Assembly (NCBI RefSeq): GCF_007671725.1
Contig: NZ_VCNM01000002.1
Span: 682,001-746,000, forward strand
Length of the DNA: 64,000 nt
Origin: Halorubrum depositum
GTDB taxonomy: Archaea; Halobacteriota; Halobacteria; Halobacteriales; Haloferacaceae
Direction: 5' to 3'
The notes beneath the pieces were generated by a model. That model was given only the letters and a program-made list of their open reading frames with translations. It searched no databases and was not told the DNA's origin. Below are positions 58,022 to 63,738 of the stretch, one piece after another; the stretch's first letter is position 1, and the number at the start of each line of letters is the position of its first letter. The position numbers and the translations under genes are program-made.

Positions 58022-62538
<4,517 letters not shown>

Positions 62539-62619
62539 GCCGGCGCACGCGCACGCGGGCGTGAAGAACCCCCAGACGGCGCCGGCGTAGTCCCGGCCCA
62601 CCCCGTCCGCGGGCCCGAG

Positions 62620-63585
62620 TTACTTCGCGCCGTCCGGCCCGCCGTGGCCCCCGTCTCGGCGGTCGTCGAGGAACGCTCGCGCGCGCTCGACGACGGACGC
62701 GCGGAACCGGGCGGTGTCGACCCCGGCCGGGTCAGTCTGCTCCTCCCCGAACCGGAGTGGCGTCTCCCTGGCGACCGCCTCGACGGTCCGGTCCGCGAGG
62801 GCGTCGACCGTCGCCGGCTCGCCGCGCCGTTCGAGGGTCGCGAGGACGCCTTCGAACCGCCCTCGTCCGGCGTGGACCGCGGCGAGGTCGTCGGGGTCGG
62901 GCGGGTCCGGCTCCCGGGCGCCTCTCGCGCGGCCGTCTCCCGCATCGCCGTCACCGACGCCCGCCTCCATCGCGATCGTCCCGCGTCCGCCGCGTTTGTT
63001 TCGGACCACGACGCCCGCAACCGGGCCGTCGCGCCACGCCGACGCCGGGACCGCGTACCCGTCGGGATCGAAGTCGCGGGCGTTCACCTCGCGCGCCAGC
63101 GCGTTCACCGGGTCGAGCCCGACCCCCTCGAAGATCGCCGCGGCGGCGTCGGGCGGTCGGAACGCTCCGTCCGATGCTCCGATCTCCAACCTCCCGTCCG
63201 CACCCGTCGCCCCACCTCCGTCCGCACCCACCCAGACGTCGGTGCCGAGGAACGGCGGGATCCGGTCCCAGTCGTAGTCGATGCGGCGACTGTGGGGCGC
63301 GACGCCGAGGAACGTCACGCCGGCGGGGTCGGCGACGGCCTCCCGGAGCGCGTCCCGGTCGAACCGGTCGCGAACGTGTCGGACCGCGGGCCGGAGCGCG
63401 AGCGGGACGGCGTCGAGGTCGGGGTACGTCGCGTCCGGACCGCCGAACCGGAGGAGCCCGGAGTCGTCCATGCTGAACCGAAGCCCCGTTCCGTCGATCA
63501 GTTCGAGGAGCCAGAGGTGTCCCTCGAGGAGGTCGTCGGGCGCTTCCGGGTCGTCGAGGTCTGGGAGCGGCGGGAATCGGTGCAT
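62620..63585 (-). CDS. RNA-ligase-like protein lacking the nucleophilic lysine (tentative)
   Basis: 321 residues. The segment WLLELIDGTGLRF at residues 25-37 lines up with motif I of RNA/DNA ligases (E-K-x-D-G-x-N/x-x-R), but the adenylated lysine is Leu29. FLGVAPHSRRIDYDWDRIPPF at 92-112 followed by GTDVW resembles the motif III region (IDY, then FDVW), again without its glutamate. GVVVRNKRG resembles motif IV-V. This suggests a non-catalytic nucleotidyltransferase fold. It starts 117 bp after gyrB on the same strand, in the opposite end position of the operon. Recognition is by eye only. Confidence 0.5.
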   Translation of the reverse strand: MHRFPPLPDLDDPEAPDDLLEGHLWLLELIDGTGLRFSMDDSGLLRFGGPDATYPDLDAVPLALRPAVRHVRDRFDRDALREAVADPAGVTFLGVAPHSRRIDYDWDRIPPFLGTDVWVGADGGGATGADGRLEIGASDGAFRPPDAAAAIFEGVGLDPVNALAREVNARDFDPDGYAVPASAWRDGPVAGVVVRNKRGGRGTIAMEAGVGDGDAGDGRARGAREPDPPDPDDLAAVHAGRGRFEGVLATLERRGEPATVDALADRTVEAVARETPLRFGEEQTDPAGVDTARFRASVVERARAFLDDRRDGGHGGPDGAK

Positions 63586-63738
63586 GATGGAGCGGTCGAG
63601 CGACCGACCTGAGCCTCCGACCCGCAGCGGGTTGGCTCTTTGGGAGGCCCCGAGCGGCGCCGCTCGGCCCGTCGCGTCGCCGGCGGCGTGCCTCCCGTTC
63701 CCACAGCTACAAGCGGCCGCCCGCCGTACCGACTCGCG

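Follow-up and report, generated by a model that had tools for sequence, protein, structure and literature searches.

The locus upstream of gyrB in the haloarchaeon Halorubrum depositum raises the question of what a gene is kept for if its product has the motif positions of a covalent nucleotidyltransferase in the right order, but carries a leucine where the nucleophilic lysine is expected. The original prediction, made from the letters of the DNA, was of a conserved but inactive ligase-like protein that could bind nucleic acid ends or act on gyrase. Here, we describe the fold, the family and the evolution of this protein and discuss what its function may be. "The window" denotes the whole stretch of DNA analysed (64,000 nucleotides; contig NZ_VCNM01000002.1, positions 682,001 to 746,000).

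Results

The gene is located between egsA, a divergently transcribed Fe-ADH/glycerol-1-phosphate-dehydrogenase-like gene (Pfam Fe-ADH match), and gyrB, whose strand it shares and whose start it precedes by 117 nt. The features of the locus are as follows.

62620..63585, minus strand: coding sequence of the predicted pseudo-RNA-ligase (321 aa and a stop codon), beginning with ATG; orthologues begin at the same Met
62959..63585, minus strand: predicted nucleotidyltransferase (adenylyltransferase) fold, residues 1-209 (AlphaFold2 model, structural matches)
62641..62895, minus strand: predicted C-terminal domain of helices (residues 231-315) with an arrangement like that of Rnl2-C (AlphaFold2 model)
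63499..63501, minus strand: Leu29 codon, where motif I has its nucleophilic lysine (alignment with intact members and outgroup ligases)
63436..63438, minus strand: Pro50 in place of the arginine of motif Ia, which is invariant in intact members (alignment)
63301..63303, minus strand: Val95 in place of the glutamate of motif III (alignment)
63241..63243, minus strand: Thr115 in place of the phenylalanine of motif IIIa that stacks on the adenine (alignment)
63016..63018, minus strand: Ala190 in place of the glutamate of motif IV (alignment)
62977..62979, minus strand: Thr203 in place of the lysine of motif V (alignment)
60562..62502, minus strand: gyrB, next gene downstream of the pseudo-ligase gene, with its own promoter
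62532..62539, minus strand: gyrB TATA box CTTTATAA, present both in genomes that have the pseudo-ligase gene and in those that lack it

In Halorubrum, a conserved CCCAAGAGCCAACCCG block (63625-63645) is found about 50 nt ahead of the start codon of the pseudo-ligase gene. This block, which has no exact match at the gyrB loci of genomes without the gene, is possibly a promoter or leader element of the pseudo-ligase gene.

The protein itself has no direct match in Pfam (PF09414 included), NCBIfam or PHROGs, but it matches the profile of the intact members of its family at E 1e-83 and aligns with the family end to end. An AlphaFold2 model built from an alignment of 28 homologues (pLDDT 88, pTM 0.85) bears out the nucleotidyltransferase fold that had been proposed. 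Its best structural match is T4 Rnl2 (2hvr residues 2-231; VIA Z 17.3, 2.6 Å over 186 residues; Foldseek E 5e-7), followed by Naegleria Rnl (Z 16) and TbREL1 (1xdn; Z 15.2). RNA, tRNA-splicing or RNA-editing ligases take all of the first 28 places among the structural matches, and DNA ligases reach a Z of about 11 or less. Of the two kinships considered originally, RNA or DNA ligase, the order of the matches rules out the latter and leaves an RNA ligase of the Rnl2 type (PF09414). The C-terminal domain, when modelled alone (pLDDT 83), gave residues 249-328 of T4 Rnl2 as top matches, which are weak by themselves (Z 5.5 and 4.8), and PF18043 (T4_Rnl2_C) is matched by one intact family member at E 0.003. 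Sequence profiles searched against PDB chains gave nothing, even at E 10 for the profile of the intact members; the structural link therefore rests on the fold together with the PF09414 and PHROG matches.

As in T4 Rnl2 (2hvq, 2hvr, 1s68), the adenylyltransferase fold (residues 1-209) seems to be followed colinearly by a helical C-terminal domain, and the positions of motifs I, III, IIIa, IV and V come in the same order, although the identity is only about 10%. Trypanosoma REL1 and Naegleria Rnl share the fold (Z 15-16); unlike the H. depositum protein, they are catalytically active and have the full motif set. The archaeal Rnl3 enzymes (Pyrococcus abyssi Pab1020, MthRnl; TIGR01209) have the fold of the superfamily as well (5d1o, Z 13.6; 2vug, Z 10.9), but are homodimeric with extra domains (PMC4606414), whereas the H. 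depositum protein matches no NCBIfam model. HARP-linked Rnl3 (PMC12153264) was considered as the same family; this is not supported, as no TIGR01209 or PF18330 match was seen. Altogether, the gene almost certainly codes for a pseudo-RNA-ligase, a haloarchaeal RNA ligase of the Rnl2 type whose ATP/lysine-AMP chemistry has been dismantled and whose scaffold has been kept.

The family was found in 205 of 391 haloarchaeal genomes and in 55 of 85 genera, a few of these matches being a distant paralogue (L032 type). When 295 genomes of the phylum were searched, all of the matches listed were haloarchaeal. Most genomes have a single member; in Halorubrum the gene is patchy (about 24 of 35 genomes). 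PF09414 (RNA_ligase) is matched by 20 of the 20 intact members scanned, and lysine-bearing homologues reach E 2e-20. One intact member, WP_012945014.1 from plasmid pHTUR01 of Haloterrigena turkmenica, is about 39% identical to the H. depositum protein over its full length; unlike the latter, the intact haloarchaeal members have kept EKVDG, FFGEA, AEGV and RAK. Homologues are also present in bacteria and in the halovirus HGTV-1, whose RNA ligase (AGM11514.1) is the nearest viral homologue found of the intact members (28% over 84%) and, unlike the H. depositum protein, has intact motifs (EKLDGG, FFGEA, EAEGL).

NCBI names the intact members "RNA ligase family protein" and annotated lysine-less homologues on named plasmids "hypothetical protein"; the assignment made here corrects this annotation of the dead versions. 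The annotated start of the Haloferax alexandrinus homologue (HBNXHx_RS17885, WP_115861942.1; L154:6001-6834), whose frame is full-length, lies 37 codons past the conserved start of the family, and the motif I region is left out of the protein as annotated. The second, distant RNA ligase paralogue (L032-L035; about 355 aa) is patchy in Halorubrum, has intact EKFDGSS, AEGVV and VKVV motifs and matches PF09414 below threshold only. Neither an intact family member nor an L032-type paralogue was found in the genome of H. depositum. The only other PF09414-like stretch in that genome (L152, G000:C2:669040-669591), which is sub-threshold and about 13 kb before the window, lies inside a 685-aa ORF that is probably the ATP-dependent DNA ligase.

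The active site was compared in 80 extracted family loci. Lysine occupies residue 29 in 28 of them and leucine in 25; the other 27 have His, Trp, Ala, Arg, Gln, Phe, Tyr, Val or Asp there. Thus, 52 of the 80 members have lost the lysine, along with most other residues of the ATP pocket, and Lys29, Glu95 and Glu190 are all kept in 23. The motif I context is LLELIDGTG in the pseudo-ligase and LLEKVDGA in intact homologues, and this alignment with intact members (EKVDG or EKIDG) and outgroup ligases (EKLDG or EKFDG) places Leu29 at the catalytic lysine, as had been predicted. A sequencing error or frameshift at this position is ruled out, because all aligned Halorubrum orthologues of the gyrB-adjacent clade also have Leu. 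The acidic residues of motifs III and IV, likewise suspected to be missing, are Val95 and Ala190. Altogether, six pocket residues (K29, R50, E95, F115, E190 and K203, corresponding in T4 Rnl2 to Lys35, Arg55, Glu99, Phe119, the motif IV Glu and the motif V Lys) are replaced by L, P, V, T, A and T in the H. depositum protein, which contains only two lysines in total.

This loss is common to the orthologues and goes along with conservation of the rest of the fold, in line with the conserved but catalytically empty ligase fold of the original prediction. Lysine-bearing members keep four to six of the six pocket residues and lysine-less members none to two; not one has exactly three. In the lysine-less members, mean retention at the five catalytic positions tested was 0.17, compared to a median of 0.88 at 65 other positions invariant in intact members, and none of 20,000 permutations gave a random draw as low, a contrast that is partly built in since the intact members were picked by K29, E95 and E190. 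R50, F115 and K203 were outside this selection and show the identical split.

The roles of these residues are known from T4 Rnl2, in which K35 is the nucleophile, R55 and E99 contact the ribose, F119 the adenine and K225/K227 the phosphate; F119, like F209 of TbREL1, stacks on the adenine (PMC3149579, PMC4599027). The corresponding Phe is lost in 48 of the 52 lysine-less members, which makes ATP binding unlikely. MthRnl with the motif I mutation K97A can still seal pre-adenylated ends, but additional mutation of the motif V lysine abolishes every step (PMC3514331). The H. depositum protein lacks both lysines and more. From its sequence, we would therefore expect neither adenylylation nor sealing, and probably no ATP binding.

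The loss is the derived state, since all five outgroup ligases (from the HGTV-1 virus, Azotobacter and Tistrella, and the L032 and L033 paralogues) have kept the lysine and both glutamates. A careful tree built without the catalytic columns required five changes of lysine status. A rooted quick tree gave eight lysine-less clades and thus eight losses, or at least four when weak branches were collapsed in favour of fewer; its root is approximate because the outgroups do not form one clade there. The lysine was lost recurrently, at least four times. Three genera (g17, g41, g51) contain both intact, or at least lysine-bearing, and lysine-less members.

The surroundings of gyrB showed some further features. 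A conserved alternating purine-pyrimidine stretch of the GCGTGCGCGTGCGC type, which is prone to form Z-DNA, is located directly upstream of the gyrB TATA box (62532-62557); with 15 bases, its run at 62543 is the longest of the whole window. Of 13 genomes from other haloarchaeal genera, most have similar CG/GT runs ahead of the TATA-like box of gyrB. This stretch may respond to supercoiling and thereby serve the autoregulation of gyrase, as an element to be compared with the RY box of the bop promoter. Six genomes have a gyrB with an in-frame interruption, located near residue 509 in four (G010, G025, G006, G254) and near residue 443 in two (G001, G132), giving ORFs of 1050-1230 aa (L167, L168, L169, L170, L191 and L192 in G010, G025, G006, G001, G254 and G132, respectively); these are probably inteins at two sites.

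Discussion

How can a gene persist whose product is not expected to catalyze the reaction of its family? The best explanation, to which we give an even chance, is a pseudo-RNA-ligase whose scaffold serves in RNA binding. Such a protein would no longer adenylylate or seal, but the retained scaffold would attach, without any chemistry, to RNA ends, to nicks or to duplex RNA and might thereby shield the bound RNA or compete with RNA-processing or viral repair enzymes. The binding of DNA or RNA ends that was predicted originally may likewise apply. Of the roles conceivable, this non-catalytic binding is the likeliest, with a probability somewhat below even. Against this reading, the retained arginines R243, R273 and R295 of the C-terminal domain may have a structural role; in T4 Rnl2, the C-domain pair R266-D292 forms a structural salt bridge (PMC4599027). 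Nor did a search across genera yield a conserved operon partner that would point to a pathway.

The main rival holds that the RNA ligase gene is dispensable and slowly decays: the substrate or the pressure by viruses is gone, the active site erodes and the ORF lingers until the gene is lost. The patchy presence in Halorubrum fits this model, as does the clean egsA-gyrB junction in nine genomes without the gene. One Halorubrum genome of three contigs (G018) has a family copy away from gyrB that is broken into three overlapping frames (L040, G018:C1:1485281-1486138), being either a pseudogene or an assembly error. Moreover, dN/dS (Nei-Gojobori) of the Halorubrum pseudo-ligases has a median of 0.44 (range 0.27-0.78; 210 non-independent pairs), compared to about 0.1 for gyrB of the same genomes, and this roughly fourfold difference fits a relaxed constraint. 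But all dN/dS values of the pseudo-ligases are below 1, and outside the gyrB-adjacent clade open frames without the lysine are found in many genera at a dN/dS of 0.17-0.29 (nine pairs within other clades), next to 0.09-0.22 for four intact pairs. Judged from these comparisons, the constraint on the gene seems to be present but relaxed, most so in Halorubrum. Neutral drift should by now have yielded stops, about two to four per lineage according to a simple model, but the ORFs of the Halorubrum orthologues are open bar one. Erosion is also focused on the ATP pocket while the other invariant positions are kept. Taken together, slow decay is less likely than a pseudo-ligase that binds RNA, but it is a rival to be reckoned with and the most probable of the alternatives.

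Regulation of gyrase had been suggested from the neighbourhood; the protein could be such a regulator, or a DNA-end binder acting together with GyrB/GyrA. The gene indeed adjoins gyrB on the same strand in one Halorubrum clade, in the order gene, gyrB, gyrA, and is found directly downstream of gyrA in genus g32 (gyrB, gyrA, gene); two different linked arrangements exceed random placement, and both types are lysine-less. However, linkage was seen in none of the other genera sampled and for no intact member sampled, and the family is one of RNA ligases. In the nine Halorubrum genomes in which egsA directly adjoins gyrB, gyrB is at the same site without the gene, and its conserved TATA promoter, with the alternating stretch ahead of it, does not differ between genomes that have the pseudo-ligase gene and those that lack it, so gyrB is independent of that gene. 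The suggestion is thus not borne out: the position beside gyrB is probably incidental, the two separate arrangements are a curiosity that makes no functional case, and a role with gyrase is the least probable of the readings considered. Hardly more probable is a residual or altered catalysis, in which pre-adenylated RNA would be sealed or Lys197 would act as a displaced nucleophile. The sealing by the motif I mutant of MthRnl and the displaced lysine postulated for Diplonema RNL (PMC4599027) give precedents, and Lys197 is conserved in 46 of the 52 lysine-less members, but it is equally conserved in intact members and is therefore not a replacement nucleophile. Loss of the motif I and V lysines together abolished all steps in MthRnl, and the H. 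depositum protein lacks the residues of motifs Ia, III, IIIa and IV as well. Pseudo-subunits commonly pair with active homologues, and the protein could accordingly be a subunit without catalysis of its own, or a regulator, that works with an active ligase or in a complex for RNA repair, as a partner of another Rnl or of RtcB. The heterodimeric ligase of phage PR1 (9hu3) among the structural matches prompted this model; no paper on it was found in the open-access literature. In the trypanosome editosome, pseudo-subunits of the RNase III type give an example of such pairing (PMC12936278), and the intact-looking second paralogue of some Halorubrum would be a candidate partner. On the other hand, H. 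depositum has neither this paralogue nor an intact family member, its sole PF09414 match is sub-threshold, and in most genomes the family member is alone. A subunit function is therefore improbable, if less so than residual catalysis.

We return to the pseudo-RNA-ligase with a scaffold that binds RNA. Pseudoenzymes are well known among kinases, proteases and phosphatases. An RNA ligase pseudoenzyme was not found among 5.4 million open-access papers, to which the search was confined; we regard the lysine-less proteins as pseudoenzymes that branched off within the Rnl2-type RNA ligases, none such having been found there. It is tempting to speculate that haloarchaea have repeatedly turned an Rnl2-type ligase into a non-catalytic recogniser of RNA ends or nicks, that is, into a class of pseudo-RNA-ligases with a role of its own. 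This is tentative, and somewhat more doubtful than RNA binding as such; if true, the role of the class could be, for example, to block viral RNA repair or to mark damaged tRNA. With intact and dead versions in one family, sometimes in one genus, and at least four independent losses, the haloarchaea offer a natural experiment that asks what the scaffold of an RNA ligase serves for once catalysis is gone.
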